Source of the DNA: Pirellulales bacterium
Lineage (GTDB): Bacteria; Planctomycetota; Planctomycetia; Pirellulales; DATAWG01
Direction: 5' to 3'
Length of the DNA: 45,198 nt
Assembly (NCBI GenBank): GCA_035939775.1
Contig: DASZFO010000345.1
Location: 1 to 45,198, forward strand
Every line of letters starts with the position of its first letter. Positions within the stretch are counted from its first letter, which is position 1. Under the pieces are notes generated by a model that worked only from the letters and a program-made list of their open reading frames with translations, was not told where the DNA came from and made no database searches. The position numbers were made by a program, and so were the translations under genes. Positions 2,250 through 41,256 of the stretch are shown piece by piece.

Positions 2250-2347
2250 GTAGGGTGCATCAAGGCTCGGCGCAGACGCAGCGGAACCTGTCGCGGACTT
2301 AGAGCGCTCCCTGGTGCGTCTGCGCGGACTCGGCGCACCCTACTTTT
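2250..2347 (+). repeat. Long imperfect inverted repeat with T-run, probable terminator
   Basis: The left arm (2250-2280) and right arm (2315-2343) are near reverse complements; both begin or end with the core GTAGGGTGC and contain GCGCAGACGCA. The right arm is followed by TTTTT on the plus strand. It lies between two converging genes, so it can act as a terminator for the peptidase gene. A half copy of the same element is found inside purQ (33913-33943). Confidence 0.7.
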
Positions 2348-3696: not shown

Positions 3697-3743
3697 GACA
3701 AATCCGTTCTCGATCGACTAAATACTCGCCAGTGCGGAAAGAA

Positions 3744-3873
3744 CGACGAATGTCTAATGACGAATCTCTAATGAATGACGAAGCTCGAATGACGAATGAG
3801 ATTGACCAACGTCGTGCGACTCGTCATTCGCCATCCGTGCTTCTTCAGGCATTCGTCATTAGGCATTCGACAT
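3744..3873. repeat. GACGAATGTCTAATGACGAA-type inverted repeat
   Basis: The left part has several copies of AATGACGAAT and GACGAATGTCTAATG. The right part has the reverse complements (ATTCGTCATTAGGCATTCGACATTC). The whole fills the proB-to-CNNM gap. A second copy of the same family lies at 11759-11915. Confidence 0.75.
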
Positions 3874-5034
3874 TCACCCTCCCTGGCCTCGGGTCCCGAT
3901 CCCCGTCGCCAAATTGTCGCGATGGATCACCTCTTGATAAGGGCAGTGTCCGAGAGCGGCGGCGATTTGATCGGTCTTCAGTCCTTTGATTCGCGTCACA
4001 TCGGCGACGGAGTAGTTGGTCAGCCCGCGGGCGAACTCTCGGCCGCCGCGATCGCATAGCGCCACGACATCCCCTTTTCGAAACGTTCCCTGGGCATCGA
4101 CGATGCCGATTGCCAGCAGGCTGCTCCCCTTGGTCTCGACCGCTTGCCGCGCCCCGTCGTCGAGGAGCAGCTTGCCGCGCGGCTGGGCCGTGAAACCGAT
4201 CCAGCGCTTCCACGAGGGGATCGATTCTGCTTGAGCGACGAAGAGCGTGCCGACCACGTCTCCGGCCAAGATTCGCATCAAGTTGCCCGGCTGCTTGCCG
4301 CTGGCGATGATCACGTTTTCTCCGGTGGAGGTGGCGACGCGGGCCGCTTCGAGCTTGCTCGCCATGCCCCCTTTGCTCACGCCGGTGGCCCGATCGCGGA
4401 CGAGCGACCAGATCGATTCGTCGAGTTGAGTCACCGTCGGGACCACCCGCGCCGCCGGATCCGCCGGATCCCCGTCATATAGCCCTTCGACATCCGAGAG
4501 CAGCACCAAGAGCGGCGCGCGGATCAAGTTGGTGACCATCGCGGCCAGTCGATCGTTGTCGCCGAAAGTGGTTTGCAGCTCCTCCACGCTGACCGTGTCG
4601 TTCTCGTTGATGATCGGCACGGCGCCGAATTTCATCAGCGTGACGATCGTGTTGCGGATGTTGAGATAGCGGGTGCGATTGTCGAGATCGTCGGCGATCA
4701 AAAGGATTTGCGCGGCATGGCGGCCGTGGCTGCGCAGCGTCCGGTCGTAGGCCTCGACGAGGCTCGTTTGCCCAACCGCGGCCACCGCTTGCAATTCGGC
4801 CAAATCGGTCGGACGTTTTTTCAAGGCCAATCGCCCCATTCCCGCACCGACGGCGCCGGAGCTGACGAGCGCCACGCGCCGGCCGGCCTGCATGACCTGG
4901 TGCAATTCCTCGGCTAGCGTTGCGACGCGGGCTTGGTCCAATTGCCCTTCCGATGTGGTGAGGATGCGCGTTCCTACTTTCACCACGATCGTGTGGGCGG
5001 CGGCAGCGATTTCTTGGCGCAAGAGATCGGTCAT
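3874..5034 (-). CDS. proB: Glutamate 5-kinase
   Basis: This enzyme phosphorylates glutamate to gamma-glutamyl phosphate, the first step of proline synthesis. The 386 residues contain the amino-acid-kinase fold (about 10-270) with VVKVGTRIL, LVSSGAVGAGMG, the substrate segment NENDTVSVEE and GDNDRLAAMV. A C-terminal PUA domain follows (about 285-370), as in E. coli ProB. The open frame runs on upstream to 5163, but the ATG at 5034 gives the usual short N-terminus before the first beta strand. No proA (glutamyl phosphate reductase) is next to it, so the rest of the pathway must be encoded elsewhere. Confidence 0.93.
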   Translation of the reverse strand: MTDLLRQEIAAAAHTIVVKVGTRILTTSEGQLDQARVATLAEELHQVMQAGRRVALVSSGAVGAGMGRLALKKRPTDLAELQAVAAVGQTSLVEAYDRTLRSHGRHAAQILLIADDLDNRTRYLNIRNTIVTLMKFGAVPIINENDTVSVEELQTTFGDNDRLAAMVTNLIRAPLLVLLSDVEGLYDGDPADPAARVVPTVTQLDESIWSLVRDRATGVSKGGMASKLEAARVATSTGENVIIASGKQPGNLMRILAGDVVGTLFVAQAESIPSWKRWIGFTAQPRGKLLLDDGARQAVETKGSSLLAIGIVDAQGTFRKGDVVALCDRGGREFARGLTNYSVADVTRIKGLKTDQIAAALGHCPYQEVIHRDNLATGIGTRGQGG

Positions 5035-10905: not shown

Positions 10906-11763
10906 ATGCCCACCCTTCCCATCATCACGCGCGGCGACGACCTTCACCGGCAAGTCCTCGGCTGGCGGGCGGCCGGCGAGTCGGTCGGGCTCGTGCCGAC
11001 GATGGGGGCGCTTCACGCTGGGCACATAAGCTTGGTCGTCCGTTCGGCCGAGGAGTGCCGGCGGACCGTGGTGACGATCTTCGTCAATCCGACGCAATTC
11101 GGCCCGAACGAGGACTTTTCGCGCTATCCGCGGCAACTCGAAAACGATCTCGCGCTGCTCGCGCCAACCGGGACCGATTTGGTCTTTGCCCCGACAACGG
11201 AGGAAATGTATCCGGCGGGGCACGCGACGTTCGTCGATGTCGGTGGAATTACGCGGCGATGGGAAGGGGCGATTCGACCGGGCCATTTTCGCGGCGTAGC
11301 CACGATCGTGCTCAAGCTATTCAATCTCGCGCCGGCCGATCGGGCTTATTTCGGCCAAAAGGACTATCAACAGTCAGTCGTCATCCGCCGGATGGTTGCC
11401 GATTTGAACGTGCCGATCGAGATTCGCATTTGCCCGACCATTCGCGAACCCGACGGATTGGCGCTCAGTTCGCGCAACGCCTATTTGAGTGCCGCCGACC
11501 GCCGCGGAGCACTGGTCCTCTCGCGGAGCCTGCGGTTGGCGGCCGATCGAGTGGGCCAGGGAGAGCGCGAGGCCCGGCCGATCGCCGCCGACATGCGAAA
11601 AATGATCGAATCCGAACCCTGCGTCGGCCTGGATTATGCAACGCTCGTCGATCCTGATACGCTAGAGGAGGTCAGCCACGTCGCGGGCACGGTCGTCGCT
11701 CTTGTCGCAGCCCGAGTCGGAACAACGAGACTGATCGACAACGAGATCATCAACTGGGAATGA
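10906..11763 (+). CDS. panC: Pantothenate synthetase
   Basis: This enzyme joins pantoate and beta-alanine with ATP to make pantothenate. The 285 residues include VPTMGALHAGHISLV (the HIGH-like nucleotidyl motif), IFVNPTQFGPNEDFSRYPR, FRGVATIVLKLFN, YFGQKDYQQ and ALSSRNAYLS, all diagnostic. The length is normal. The frame is open to 10807, but the upstream codons are repeat sequence. The ATG at 10906 gives the usual N-terminus seven residues before the first strand. The product acts in the cytoplasm. Confidence 0.95.
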   Translation: MPTLPIITRGDDLHRQVLGWRAAGESVGLVPTMGALHAGHISLVVRSAEECRRTVVTIFVNPTQFGPNEDFSRYPRQLENDLALLAPTGTDLVFAPTTEEMYPAGHATFVDVGGITRRWEGAIRPGHFRGVATIVLKLFNLAPADRAYFGQKDYQQSVVIRRMVADLNVPIEIRICPTIREPDGLALSSRNAYLSAADRRGALVLSRSLRLAADRVGQGEREARPIAADMRKMIESEPCVGLDYATLVDPDTLEEVSHVAGTVVALVAARVGTTRLIDNEIINWE

Positions 11764-11915
11764 CGAATGACGAAATCCGAATGACGAAAGAATGACGAAT
11801 GTCTAAATGACGAAGGCGCTCGATCTGAGCGTGCGATTCGTCCTGTCGCAGCGGATCTTCGACATTCGTGCTTCGTCATTCGTTAGACATTCGTCATTCG
11901 ACATTAGTCATTTCG
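11759..11915. repeat. GACGAATGTCTAATGACGAA-type inverted repeat, second copy
   Basis: The left part repeats AATGACGAA units and AATGACGAATGTCTAAATG. The right part has CATTCGTTAGACATTCGTCATTCGACATTAGTCATT. It begins at the panC stop codon and ends about 35 bases before lgt. It is the same family as 3744-3873. Confidence 0.75.
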
Positions 11916-24148: not shown

Positions 24149-24241
24149 GCCTAAAAAATCCGGCTGGGAGAAGGGGACAGTCCCCGTTTTGCTCCGCGGA
24201 CTCCGAAAAAGGGGGACAGTCCCCGTCGGATCTGTTAGGCG
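24149..24241. repeat. GGGGACAGTCCCC palindromic element, copy 1
   Basis: The core (24171-24225) has two GGGGACAGTCCCC palindromes flanking TTTTGCTCCGCGGACT. Outer arms CGCCTAAAAAATCCGGC (24149-24165) and GTCGGATCTGTTAGGCG (24225-24241) are imperfect reverse complements. The core matches that at 41173-41227 at 53 of 55 bases. It lies between the convergent chimera and spoVG. Confidence 0.8.
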
Positions 24242-29394: not shown

Positions 29395-30234
29395 ATGTGG
29401 AAAACCGTCACCATTGTCGGAGTCGGCCTGATCGGTGGTTCGATCGGACTGGCGCTGCGCGAGCGGGAATTGGCCGAGCGCGTCATTGGCGTCGGGCGAC
29501 GAGCGGCGTCGTTGCGAAAGGCGAAATCAATGGGAGCCGTCAGCGCGACGACGCTCAGCCTCGAACAAGGCGTTGCGGAGGCGGATGTCGTGGTCGTCTG
29601 CACTCCGATCGCACAGATCCCCGAGCAAATCCTTCAAGCCTCGTCAGCTTGCCGGCCAAGCGCGCTGATTACCGACGCGGGCAGCACCAAGGCCACGATC
29701 GTGCAGATCTTGAACGGCCAGCTTCCCGAGTCGGTTCGCTTCGTTGGCAGCCATCCGCTGGCGGGCAGCGAAAAATCCGGCCCAGAGGCCGCCAGCGCCG
29801 ATCTATTCGAGGGGCGAATCGTGGTTGTCACCCCAGGTCCAACGACCCGCGAGGGAGTCGCTGCGGATGCGGCCGATTTTTGGTCGGCGCTTGGGGCCAC
29901 GGTGTTCATGATGAACCCCAAGGACCACGACGCGGCTCTAGCCTCGACCAGTCATCTTCCGCATCTTCTGGCATCGCTATTGGCCGGAGTGACGCCGCGC
30001 GCCGATTTGCCATTAACCGCGACCGGCTGGCAAGATACGACGCGAATCGCGGCCGGCGACCCCGAGTTGTGGGCGCAAATTCTGCTGGATAACAAGCGAA
30101 ACGTCTTGAAGTCGTTGGCCCGGTTTGAGAAAACGATGCAAAGAGCCAAGACGGCCCTGGAACGGAGCGATTCGAAAACTCTCCAGCGGCTCTTGGCGGA
30201 AGCCAAAGCGATCCGCGATGCTGTGGGAAGTTGA
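29395..30234 (+). CDS. tyrA: Prephenate (or arogenate) dehydrogenase
   Basis: This enzyme oxidatively decarboxylates prephenate (or arogenate) toward tyrosine. The 279 residues start with the Rossmann motif [17 protein letters not shown]. They continue with [26 protein letters not shown] and the catalytic [12 protein letters not shown], and end with the dimerisation helices including [11 protein letters not shown] and GWQDTTRIA. There is no chorismate mutase or ACT domain. The start is the ATG at 29395. Its last 17 bases overlap the start of purL in another frame, which suggests translational coupling. Confidence 0.92.
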
Positions 30235-33200
30235 CATCTATCCGGCCGAGGGACAGCCGGATCGCGCCGCGCGCGGGATTTCGGCCGATGCCGCCGACTT
30301 CGGGCTGGCCCAAGACCTTCGCGTGACGGCCGCCGTCGGCCATCTGATTCAAGGCGAACTGAGCCACGACGACGTTTCGCGGCTGGCTCGCGAACTGCTG
30401 GCCGACCCGGTCGTCGAACGAGCTATCGTGGCGCCCGTGGGCGACGCTTCCCTCGCAACACTCCCTCTCCCAAAGGGAGAGGGGACCGGACAGGTGGCAT
30501 CCCCGCGGTTTCGTCTGGTCCATGTCCTGCCCAAACCGGGCGTGATGGACCCCGTAGCCCAAAGCACGCTTTCTGCGATCCGGGATTTCGGCCTTGAGGC
30601 CGAGGCGGTCCGCACGCTGCGAAAATACTGGCTCGGCGATTTGACCGAAGATCGGTTTCGCCTGCTGCTGACGAAGGTGCTTGCCAACGACGCGATCGAG
30701 CAAGTCATCGTCGGCCCGCTCAATTTCGAGCGATTGGAATTCGGCTCGGAGTATTGTTTCAAGTTGGTCCGCGTGCCGCTCTCGGGAATGGACGAGTCGG
30801 CCTTGATGCGGCTGAGTCGCGAGGGGCAGCTTTATCTATCGTTGGCGGAAATGCAGGCGATTCAAGAATACTTTCGTGCGTTGGGGCGCGAGCCGACCGA
30901 CGCCGAATTGGAAACTCTCGCCCAAACCTGGAGCGAGCATTGCAGCCACAAGACGCTGGCGGGGCGGATCGCTTACCGCGGACCGGAGGGTCTTCGGCGT
31001 TTCGAGAACATGCTCAAGGAGACGATCTTCGCCGCCACGCAGGAGATTCGCAAAGCGCGGCGGGAGCGCGGCCAGGAGGATTGGTGCGTCAGCGTTTTTG
31101 AGGACAATGCCGGAGTGATTCGCTTCGACGAGCAAACCAACATCGTGTTCAAAGTCGAGACGCACAACCATCCATCGGCCCTAGAGCCCTACGGCGGCGC
31201 GAATACGGGCCTCGGCGGCGTGATTCGCGATTCTATCGGCACGGGGCTCGGCGCGAAACCCGTTTGCAACACCGACGTTTTCTGCTTCGCACCGCCGGAG
31301 ACCTCTTCCGACACCGCGCCTGCCGGCGTCTTGCACCCGCGGCGGGTAATGAAAGGGGTCGTCTCGGGAGTGCGCGATTACGGCAACCGGATGGGTATCC
31401 CCACGGTAAATGGAGCGATCTATTTCGATCCTAGATATCTCGGCAATCCGCTCGTTTTCTGCGGCAGCGTCGGACTTTTACCCCGCGACAAATCGCACAA
31501 GGCTCCGCAGCCGGGAGACCAGATCGTCGTGGTCGGCGGCCGGACCGGTCGTGACGGCATCCACGGGGCGACTTTCAGCTCCGCCGAACTCACGAGCCAA
31601 AGTGAATCTCTTTCCGGCGGGGCGGTGCAAATCGGCAACGCAATCACCGAAAAGATGCTGCTCGACGTGCTGCTCGCCGCGCGCGACCGCGGGCTGTACA
31701 GCGCCGTCACCGATTGCGGCGCCGGAGGTTTTTCGAGCGCCGTCGGCGAGATGGGAGAGAAGATCGGCGCGGAGGTGTGGCTCGATCGCGCCCCGCTCAA
31801 GTATCAGGGCCTCTCGTATACCGAGATTTGGATATCTGAGGCCCAAGAGCGGATGGTGCTCGCGGTGCCGCCGCGGAATTGGCCGGAGTTATCGGCGCTT
31901 TGTGAATCGGAAGGGGTCGAAGCCACGGTGATCGGTCAGTTCGTGCCCACCGGCCGGCTGAAGCTAAAGTACGGCGACCAGGAAGCGGCCGATTTGGCAA
32001 TGGAATTCCTGCACGGCGGGCGGCCGCCAGTGGTCCGCGACGCGGCCTACGCTCCCACCGAAACGGCGGCGCTGCACTGGCCCGCCGCACTCGCTCATTC
32101 GACGAACTTCTCCGATCAGCTTCTCAAGATTCTCGGCTCGCTGAATGTGTGCAGCAAGGAATGGGTGATCCGGCAATACGATCACGAGGTGCAAGGCGGA
32201 AGCGTCGTCAAGCCGTTGGTCGGCGCGAGCAACGACGGCCCGAGCGATGCGGCCGTCGTTCGGCCGGTGCTCTCGTCGCGGCGCGGGTTGGTCGTCGCCT
32301 GCGGGATGAATCCGCGCTACGGCGACTTTGACACGTATCACATGGCCGCCAACGCCATCGACGAGGCGATTCGCAACTGCGTCGCGGTCGGGGCCGATCC
32401 GGAGCGCATCGCGATTCTCGACAACTTCTGTTGGGGCGATTGCGAGCGCCCCGAAACGCTTGGCTCATTGGTGCGGGCGGCGCTTGCCTGCCACGATCTG
32501 GCCGTCGCGCTCGGCACCCCGTTCATCAGCGGCAAGGACAGCCTCAACAACGAATTCCGCTTCACCGACGCGGCGGGCGTCAAGCAAACGATCGTAATCC
32601 CGCCGTCGCTGTTGATTAGCGCGCTCGGCCAGATTGCGGACGTAAGCCTCGCGGTGACGATGGACTTGAAGCACGTGGGCAACGTGCTGTATCAAGTCGG
32701 CGCGACGAAAGACGAACTCGGCGGATCGCATCTGGCCCTCGTCGAGAAACTTGCGGGCGGGCATGTGCCGAAAGTGAACGCCCTATTGGCGAAAGCGACG
32801 TTCGCCGCGCTGCACAAGGCAATTGAATTGCGATTGGTTCGCTCTTGCCACGATCTCAGCGAAGGCGGACTGGCCGTCGCCGCGGCGGAAATGGCGTTTG
32901 CCGGCGGCCTGGGGGCGCGGATTTTCCTCGAACAAGTGCCCAATCAACTGGACCTAACCGCGCTGGAGAGCGCCGCGACCGCGAACAGTCCGTCGATCAT
33001 CAACGCCCTTCTATTGTTCGCCGAATCGAATACGCGGTTCCTCTGCGAGGTCCCTCAAGATGCGGTGGGGCACTTCGAATCGATGCTCGGCGACGTGCCG
33101 CACGCCGCCGTGGGCGAGGTCATCGCCGAGCCGAAACTCCAAATCGTAAACGTTGACCCGGCCAATCCGTTCCATGTAATCGATGCCAGTTTAACGGACT

Positions 33201-33235
33201 TGAAGGAAGCCTGGCAGAAGCCGCTTCGCTGGTAA
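30218..33235 (+). CDS. purL: Phosphoribosylformylglycinamidine synthase, PurS-like plus PurL
   Basis: PurL converts FGAR to FGAM using ATP and ammonia supplied by PurQ. The 1005 residues lie between the small form (about 740, with separate PurS) and the large fused form (about 1300). Residues 1-75 and about 97-175 look like two PurS-like units ([29 protein letters not shown]). The core follows: [72 protein letters not shown], and GKDSLNNEF in the second half. The C-terminal glutaminase is absent and is provided by purQ downstream. A CCCTCTCCC palindrome has been absorbed in frame near residues 82-89. The ATG at 30218 lies within the end of tyrA. Confidence 0.95.
30462..30484. repeat. CCCTCTCCC-AAA-GGGAGAGGG palindrome inside purL
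   Basis: This is a 9-bp perfect stem with a 3-base loop, translated as LPLPKGEG in purL. It sits at the junction between the two PurS-like units, where length variation should be tolerated. Confidence 0.75.
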
Positions 33236-33344: not shown

Positions 33345-34199
33345 ATGGTTCAACCACGCGTTTTGATCCTGCGGGCGCCCGGCACGAACTGCGACGGCGA
33401 GACCGCGCACGCGTTTTCGCTCTCCGGCGGACGGACCGAGGTGCTCCACATTAATCGCCTGCTCGAACAGCCGAGCCTTTGCAACCAGCATCAAATCCTT
33501 TGCATTCCGGGCGGCTTCAGCTTCGGCGACGACATCGCCTCCGGCCGCATCTTCGCCAATTTGATCCGGCACCACCTGGCCGACGCCATGCGCGAATTCA
33601 GAGCGGCGGGCAAGCTGATCCTCGGCATCTGCAACGGCTTTCAAGTGCTCATCAACTCGGGCATCCTGCTCGAGGACGACCGGCGGCACGGCCCCCCGGC
33701 CACGCTGGCTTGGAACCGCTCCGGCCGGTTCGAGGATCGCTGGGTGCAGCTCAAGACCGACGGCTCCAAGTGCGTCTTTCTCGCCGGCATCGATTCGATG
33801 TATCTGCCGATAGCCCACGGTGAAGGCCGGTTCGCCGCCCGCTCCCCCGACGTGCTCGACGACCTAGACCACGCCGGACAACTCGTGCTCCGCTATACGG
33901 CAAGCGATCCTAGTAGGGTGCGTCAAGTCCGCGCAGACGCACCGCCACAAGACCCAGCCACATCCACTACATCAGTTTTGAAAGCTCCTCAAACCCTTGT
34001 CCCGTACCCCGAAAACCCCAACGGCGCCGAGCGCGACGTAGCGGGCGTTTGCGATCCCACCGGTCGCATCTTCGGCCTCATGCCGCACCCGGAGCGCCAT
34101 GTCGATCCATCGCAACACCCGCGCTGGACCCGCGGCGAAGCTCGCACGCCCGGCGACGGTCTGCGAGTATTCGCCAATGCGGTGGCGTATTTCCGCTAA
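33345..34199 (+). CDS. purQ: Phosphoribosylformylglycinamidine synthase, glutaminase subunit
   Basis: PurQ hydrolyses glutamine to feed ammonia to PurL. The 284 residues are a class I glutaminase: LRAPGTNCDGE, IPGGFSFGDDIASGRIFAN, GICNGFQVLINSG with nucleophile C96, and GLMPHPERHVDP with H248 and E250. Between the strand ending LVLRYT (about 185) and the PYPENPNGAERDVAGVCDPTG segment lies an insertion of about 32 residues (SRVRQVRADAPPQ...). Its DNA is a copy of a dispersed repeat (33913-33943) plus some extra. The insertion lies away from the catalytic residues, so the enzyme is probably active. It follows purL after a repeat-filled gap and converges on aceF with two bases between stops. Confidence 0.95.
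   Translation: MVQPRVLILRAPGTNCDGETAHAFSLSGGRTEVLHINRLLEQPSLCNQHQILCIPGGFSFGDDIASGRIFANLIRHHLADAMREFRAAGKLILGICNGFQVLINSGILLEDDRRHGPPATLAWNRSGRFEDRWVQLKTDGSKCVFLAGIDSMYLPIAHGEGRFAARSPDVLDDLDHAGQLVLRYTASDPSRVRQVRADAPPQDPATSTTSVLKAPQTLVPYPENPNGAERDVAGVCDPTGRIFGLMPHPERHVDPSQHPRWTRGEARTPGDGLRVFANAVAYFR
33913..33943. repeat. GTAGGGTGCGTC repeat half-element inside purQ
   Basis: Bases 33913-33941 match the reverse complement of the right arm at 2315-2343 at 27 of 29 positions. The insertion keeps the purQ frame and encodes RVRQVRADAP and neighbours. Confidence 0.8.
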
Positions 34200-40675: not shown

Positions 40676-41146
40676 ATGTCCGTCAAGCCAATTCCCGACG
40701 GTTATCACACCGCGACGCCGTATTTGATCGTCAGCGACGCAGCCGGAGCGATCGATTTCTACAAGCGGGCGTTCGGCGCCACCGAGCTGTTTCGGATGCC
40801 AATGCCAAACGGAAAGATCGGCCATGCCGAGATCAAGATCGGCAACTCGATTCTCATGCTTGCCGACGAATTCCCCGAGATGGGCGCTCGCAGCCCGAAA
40901 ACGATCGGGGGCACGGCGACCAGCATATTGCTATACGTCGAAGATGTCGATGCACGGTTCAATAAGGCTATCGCCGCCGGCGGAAAAGTCATGCGACCGC
41001 TCAAGAACCAGTTCTACGGCGATCGCTCGGGGACGCTGGAAGACCCCTTCGGCCACACCTGGCACATCGGCACGCACATCGAAGACGTGCCGCCCGAGGA
41101 GATGCACAACCGCATGGCGGCGGAAATGCAAGCGAAAGGCGGCTAA
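40676..41146 (+). CDS. VOC family protein (glyoxalase/PhnB-like)
   Basis: AAGGAG lies 9 bases before the ATG. The 156 residues have the vicinal-oxygen-chelate betaalphabetabetabeta pattern: ATPYLIVSDAAGAIDFYKRAFGATELFRM, IGHAEIKIGNSILMLADE, LLYVEDVDARFNKAIAAGGKVMRPLKNQFYGDRSGTLEDPFGHTWHIGTH. The PhnB-type subfamily often has unknown small-molecule substrates; the metal-site residues H and E typical of glyoxalases are only partly apparent. The gene is flanked by a repeat element immediately after its stop codon. Confidence 0.88.
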   Translation: MSVKPIPDGYHTATPYLIVSDAAGAIDFYKRAFGATELFRMPMPNGKIGHAEIKIGNSILMLADEFPEMGARSPKTIGGTATSILLYVEDVDARFNKAIAAGGKVMRPLKNQFYGDRSGTLEDPFGHTWHIGTHIEDVPPEEMHNRMAAEMQAKGG

Positions 41147-41246
41147 GAGCCTATCCGAGAACCGCCTGGGCAAAGGGGACAGTCCCCGTTTTGCTCCGCG
41201 GACTGCGCAAAAGGGGGACAGTCCCCGGCGGTTCTCGGATAGGCTC
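41147..41246. repeat. GGGGACAGTCCCC palindromic element, copy 2
   Basis: Outer arms GAGCCTATCCGAGAACCGCC (41147-41166) and GGCGGTTCTCGGATAGGCTC (41227-41246) are perfect 20-bp reverse complements. Inside lies the 55-base core (41173-41227) shared with 24171-24225. It begins at the base after the stop codon of the VOC gene and can act as a terminator for the converging VOC and rnc genes. Confidence 0.88.
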
Positions 41247-41256
41247 TGAGTCCGTC

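Follow-up and report, generated by a model that had tools for sequence, protein, structure and literature searches.

How does a short repeat that is dispersed through a bacterial genome come to be read as part of an essential enzyme? The question is raised by a purQ gene on contig DASZFO010000345.1 of assembly GCA_035939775.1, from a Pirellulales bacterium (GTDB lineage Bacteria; Planctomycetota; Planctomycetia; Pirellulales; DATAWG01). The window, that is the whole stretch of DNA analysed, covers positions 1 to 45,198 of the forward strand; the host genome, labelled G000, is metagenome-assembled and comprises 6.39 Mb in 384 contigs, with 96% completeness. An earlier note on this DNA had interpreted the locus as a dispersed repeat absorbed into purQ. 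That interpretation is supported, and the element is very probably a GTAG REP inserted in frame in a flexible, permissive loop and tolerated by the enzyme. The note missed a wider pattern, which is the main point here: unrelated repeats are found in the same PurQ loop in other genomes.

The purQ gene and the REP unit within it

The gene, its upstream neighbour and the parts of the element are located as follows.

33345..34199, + strand: purQ, glutaminase subunit of phosphoribosylformylglycinamidine synthase, 284 aa (from GATase_5, NCBIfam and fold)
30125..33235, + strand: putative purL-type ORF, immediately 5' of purQ (ORF listing from the first TTG; identity by sequence and position)
33913..33943, + strand: single GTAG-type REP unit GTAGGGTGCGTCAAGTCCGCGCAGACGCACC, in frame in purQ (from genomic copy counts)
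33913..33916, + strand: GTAG head tetranucleotide, typical of GTAG REPs (sequence; consensus in PMC3733652 and PMC8266576)
33917..33924, + strand: 5' stem arm GGTGCGTC (sequence and stem tests)
33936..33943, + strand: 3' stem arm GACGCACC (sequence and stem tests)

The protein matches GATase_5 with 255 bits in a profile search and its best NCBIfam models are PurQ models, yet the scores fall under the curated cut-offs. Structure comparison of the predicted model points to a fold resembling the glutaminase domains of FGAM synthetases and Thermotoga PurQ (3d54_D). The protein belongs to the class I glutamine amidotransferases, with Cys-His-Glu present and a purL-type neighbour, and a genome search returned a single purQ match in G000. 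As the earlier note had read it, the purQ frame runs through the repeat; it is open throughout, REP included, with zero stops. The residues that the note considered intact, C96, H248 and E250, are invariant across an alignment of 49 PurQ sequences, the one from which the structure was predicted.

GTAG REPs have been described as units of 20-40 nt with a GTAG head and a short perfect stem, arranged in head-to-head pairs and mostly intergenic, with some in-frame genic copies (PMC3733652, BMC Genomics 2013), and Planctomycetes are listed among their hosts (PMC3733652). The purQ element is like these REPs in head, stem, unit size, pairing and intergenic majority. The GTAG tetranucleotide directly abuts the palindrome, giving the architecture GTAG followed by GGTGCGTC-N11-GACGCACC, with a stem that is perfect over 8 bp. 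The element is a complete GTAG-headed REP hairpin, a class assigned by structure and not through a demonstrated REPtron. Its translation product is SRVRQVRADAP, residues 190-200 (S190-P200), and since 31 nt does not divide evenly into codons, flanking bases must belong to the insertion event. The earlier estimate of about 32 added residues was too high: the REP gives about 11, and the remainder is hypervariable loop.

In the mRNA, the hairpin of the REP has a computed energy of -15.8 kcal/mol (z -1.6), and 17 of 200 shuffles are equally good. When windows were matched, the REP stem scored 8 vs 7 elsewhere in purQ, a bare excess, and with wider spacers it was no stronger than in the remaining purQ windows. 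Hairpin strength was dropped as sole evidence since many purQ windows score alike, and copy counts were used instead; it is because of genome copy number, and not of hairpin strength, that the element is regarded as a REP.

The REP family in the host genome

The stem pattern has 78 exact matches in G000 and 0 for the reversed control, so the match of the purQ element to a REP is not due to chance; the further genomic copies that the earlier note expected do therefore exist. The aligned copies sort into a few loop variants, and 12 of them, the purQ copy included, are identical over all 31 nt. Could the loop nevertheless have drifted to a REP sequence, or the repeat matches be fortuitous? The stem by itself covers 8 bp and other purQ windows reach similar hairpin scores, but identity at 31 of 31 nt with 11 other genomic copies, the empty reversed control and the abundance, in five other genomes, of the repeats that their own PurQ loops carry all speak against it. 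A chance resemblance is at odds with the copy counts as they stand, and its probability is negligible.

The copies of the family are numerous, spread over many contigs and mostly intergenic, and many of them lie near an inverted partner, in the head-to-head arrangement. One such pair is in the window.

2250..2343, no strand assigned: head-to-head pair of the purQ-type REP family (between convergent genes; fold z -3.0)

The genes flanking this pair converge, with a stop at 2213 on the + strand and a stop at 2350 on the - strand. The match that had drawn attention to the locus, between 33913-33941 and the arm at 2315-2343, holds at 27 of 29 positions, as a reverse complement, and a repeat search extends it to 2313-2344 and 33912-33943 (32 nt, 30/32, 94%). 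The arm at 2315 had been called terminator-like. A T5 run does follow it, but the arm is one member of a REP pair of the usual intergenic kind and not a dedicated terminator.

Genic and intergenic copies were told apart by taking flanks of about 1.5 kb around the copies, calculating coding scores on both sides and reading the ORFs. The coding score is insensitive: purQ itself was not flagged, its part after the REP scoring near zero, and homology identifies purQ as coding. The only other locus singled out by the score was L212, in a class I methyltransferase gene of G000 (L212:1001-1789, + strand), where a head-to-head pair of REPs (1179-1209 and 1226-1258) lies in frame and directly precedes the methyltransferase Pfam domain (residues 91 onward); the first of these units has the reading frame of the purQ REP (SRVRQVRADAP). 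Among the sampled copies, no convincing in-gene location was found besides purQ and this one methyltransferase gene. Several REP-spanning ORFs (e.g. a tadA-like, a pyrH-like and an RND-efflux-like one) were dismissed, the REP preceding the likely start in their translations, and the remaining copies in long frames appear to lie before a start or in frames with no coding signal.

Outside G000, the stem of the purQ REP, mostly with different loop sequences, is present in 10 others of 117 genomes of the order, and a pattern search did not find it in the nearest relative, G001.

RAYT transposases are thought to mobilise REPs (PMC8266576, PMC3733652). A profile search of G000 gave four Y1_Tnp genes, and two of the Y1 transposases match the RAYT model, one of them above the cut-off. 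These two RAYT-like transposases, L240 and L241, are located on contigs C88 and C100, with no purQ-type REP nearby. The purQ REP shares with REPtrons, the RAYT (TnpA-REP) systems (PMC8266576), the GTAG-hairpin type of substrate, and differs from them in that no G000 Y1 transposase gene, within flanks of about 2.5-3 kb in this incomplete assembly, is accompanied by an intact unit of the purQ REP family.

Other repeats are also present in the window. A dispersed repeat at 24160-24233 and 41143-41250 carries GGGGACAGTCCCC palindromes in a 74-nt unit, its copies being 91% alike; the copy at 41143-41250 is enclosed by a 28-nt inverted repeat, and coding scores suggest that both are intergenic. At 3741-3875 and 11758-11912, AATGACGAATGACGAA-type repeats form inverted arrays, apparently also intergenic.

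Unrelated repeats in the hypervariable PurQ loop

The REP of purQ lies in a segment that is bounded by LVLRY and YPxNPNG in the homologues and is located in the host gene as follows.

33897..34004, + strand: hypervariable PurQ loop, residues 185-220, LVLRY to YPENPNG (from homologue lengths and pLDDT)

About 200 PurQ homologues, gathered from the order and beyond, were examined. The loop is the most length-variable segment of PurQ (sd 9.1 residues, vs 3.5 at the next site); it ranges from 0 to 65 residues, with a median of 15, across 119 distinct PurQ sequences of the order, and is at most 3 residues long in several relatives. In 33 of the 119 it has at least 20 residues, a fraction that is biased because a second batch of order genomes was picked partly for long loops or high similarity. 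Distant homologues (n=50) have a median of 9 and a maximum of 12. The loop of the host has 36 residues, 21 over the order median, and the REP explains only part of this excess. There is no motif conserved across the loops of the homologues. The REP-encoded segment RVRQVRADAPP is in none of the approximately 200 sequences, in agreement with the expectation that relatives should lack it.

In an AlphaFold2 model of the host PurQ, which has a pLDDT of 91 overall, confidence is lowest at residues 201-210 (mean 59). The inserted segment, for which a surface loop had been considered, is placed by this model in the loop that it predicts with least confidence, the rest being confident. In alignments with 3d54 and with a long single-chain FGAM synthase, two blocks align and the loop falls in the space that separates them. 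It is probably surface-exposed and near neutral.

A second length-variable site lies between residues L136 and C143 of PurQ (loci L111, L121, L099, L091, L070 and L182). Some distant PurQs, from Omnitrophota loci, have lysine-rich insertions there, e.g. KSQVTSHKSQVR and KNIKNQKSKIKTK, which resemble translated tandem repeats, and L182, from the order genome G043, combines a 38-residue segment at this site with a hairpin in the main loop.

The repeats found in the main loop were counted in the whole genome of each host, with other genomes as controls. In G021 the loop holds a palindromic REP-like unit, CACTGCTGGGCAAGCCAGCAGTGGCAC, with 233 matches (at most 2 mismatches); this family is present in other genomes as well, with 17 matches in G000 (CACTGCTGG-type). 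G001, the only genome from the same family as the host, already has another repeat at the purQ site: GAGGGGC heptads, with 200 matches, overlapping registers of one array being counted separately, and 33 in G000. The loop of G172 contains GGTGGCTGGGGCATAGCGAAGCG, which has 51 matches in its own genome and 2 in G000. ATTGCGG heptads in the loop of G110 have 41 matches (overlapping registers) and none in five other genomes; the repeat is low in complexity and its reversed control gives 29 matches. In G049, two inverted copies of GGGGTCTCGCGGAGCGAG flank another palindrome, and this sequence has 16 matches and none in the other genomes tested. The loop repeat of G009 has 8 matches, a weak case; VALAQPV, at the corresponding place in the loop of its genus-mate G026, is compatible with an inherited, diverged copy.

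When 64 loops were compared with same-length windows of their own genes, every control window was surpassed by 7 loops in the strength of an inverted repeat and by 11 in that of a direct repeat; in several cases the margin is one unit only, so that single calls are soft. Clear cases are L021 and L135 for inverted repeats and L010, L025, L244, L257 and L276 for direct repeats. A repeat nature is also suggested, from their sequences, for the loops of G144, G302, G213, G043 and G033 and for the identical loops of G225 and L047.

As the repeats differ in sequence, their insertions are taken to be independent. The loop acts as a permissive sink for DNA repeats, with five other genomes having their own, different dispersed or tandem repeats in it, and our impression is that it gathers such DNA much as intergenic DNA does. 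It is likely, although less firmly so than the origin proposed for the purQ element itself, that this holds across the lineage, with unrelated REPs and tandem repeats repeatedly entering one PurQ surface loop in frame, and remaining there, in five or more GTDB families of the order.

These data bear on two further explanations. One is that the REP in purQ arose by joining across a repeat in a metagenome-assembled genome. The assembly, at 384 contigs, offers occasion for such an error, and repeats are known break points, but the frame is intact, the conserved PurQ blocks stand in the expected order on either side of the REP, and different repeats occupy exactly this loop in other genomes. Moreover, ordinary sequencing reads are longer than a 31-nt repeat. 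We consider an assembly artefact very improbable.

The other is that selection keeps the REP-like DNA for a function, e.g. contact of a longer or charged loop with PurL or PurS, or adjustment of purQ translation by a hairpin in the mRNA. Long loops are indeed common in the order, the inserted residues are largely hydrophilic and the REP is able to form a hairpin in the mRNA. Nevertheless, the inserts are unrelated between hosts, vary from 0 to 65 residues and have no conserved motif, several relatives manage with very short loops, and the RNA fold is only marginally above that of shuffles. A functional loop is therefore an improbable explanation, if somewhat less so than an artefact.

A proposed origin and its relation to known systems

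We favour, instead, tolerated insertion. REPs with a GTAG head are short hairpin repeats that spread through the genomes of their hosts, and one of them would have entered purQ, probably through a RAYT-type transposase. Its landing site would be the flexible loop of residues 185-220, which joins two beta strands; as the inserted stretch keeps the frame and brings no stop, the result would be a PurQ with about 11 extra residues that is tolerated, and the REP-bearing protein is presumably made and functional. In-frame, stop-free alleles would survive in the tolerant loop, where selection would mainly require an open frame, the loop thereby resembling intergenic DNA within an essential gene. Other hosts of the order have their own, unrelated REPs or tandem repeats in this loop; the heptad insertions may stem from slippage or another route and not from transposition.

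In-frame REPs are already known, both as GTAG/CGTC REPs and as Rickettsia palindromic elements. REP insertions have been proposed to be neutral in flexible linkers or loops, and a single instance of distinct REPs in nearly the same position has been described, in recB of two Xanthomonas species (PMC3733652). Neither purQ and purL nor purine genes in general appear in the main text of the same paper, and the present case is unlike its REPs in that one PurQ loop is common to unrelated repeats in several GTDB families, non-REP tandem heptads included. The Rickettsia palindromic elements (Ogata et al. 2000, 2002), as outlined in PMC10969869, are the best-known translated palindromes: about 150 bp in size, they occur in many genes of one genus. 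The likeness, on the same account, is that short palindromic repeats lie in frame in unrelated genes and are translated; the difference is that the GTAG head groups the purQ unit with REPs and that many kinds of repeat converge on one loop. The end tag of the purQ unit is GTAG and not the CGTC of short Rickettsia elements, a separation made by end tag and not by sequence comparison with that family. What is new here is the repeated use of one loop in one essential enzyme by unrelated repeats, for which we found no prior description; a literature search for insertions in the PurQ loop of Planctomycetes returned no paper.

The finding may matter for annotation, as the REP-bearing PurQ scores under curated family cut-offs. 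More broadly, it has been proposed that non-coding DNA can become protein through short repeats inserted in frame, and most of the published examples that we found are single insertions in scattered genes. One loop struck independently in many lineages offers replicates, in which tolerated repeats and frames, the rate of decay and any gain of use could be compared. If this reading is true, PurQ loops would document, naturally and in replicate, how coding sequence is built from selfish or junk DNA.
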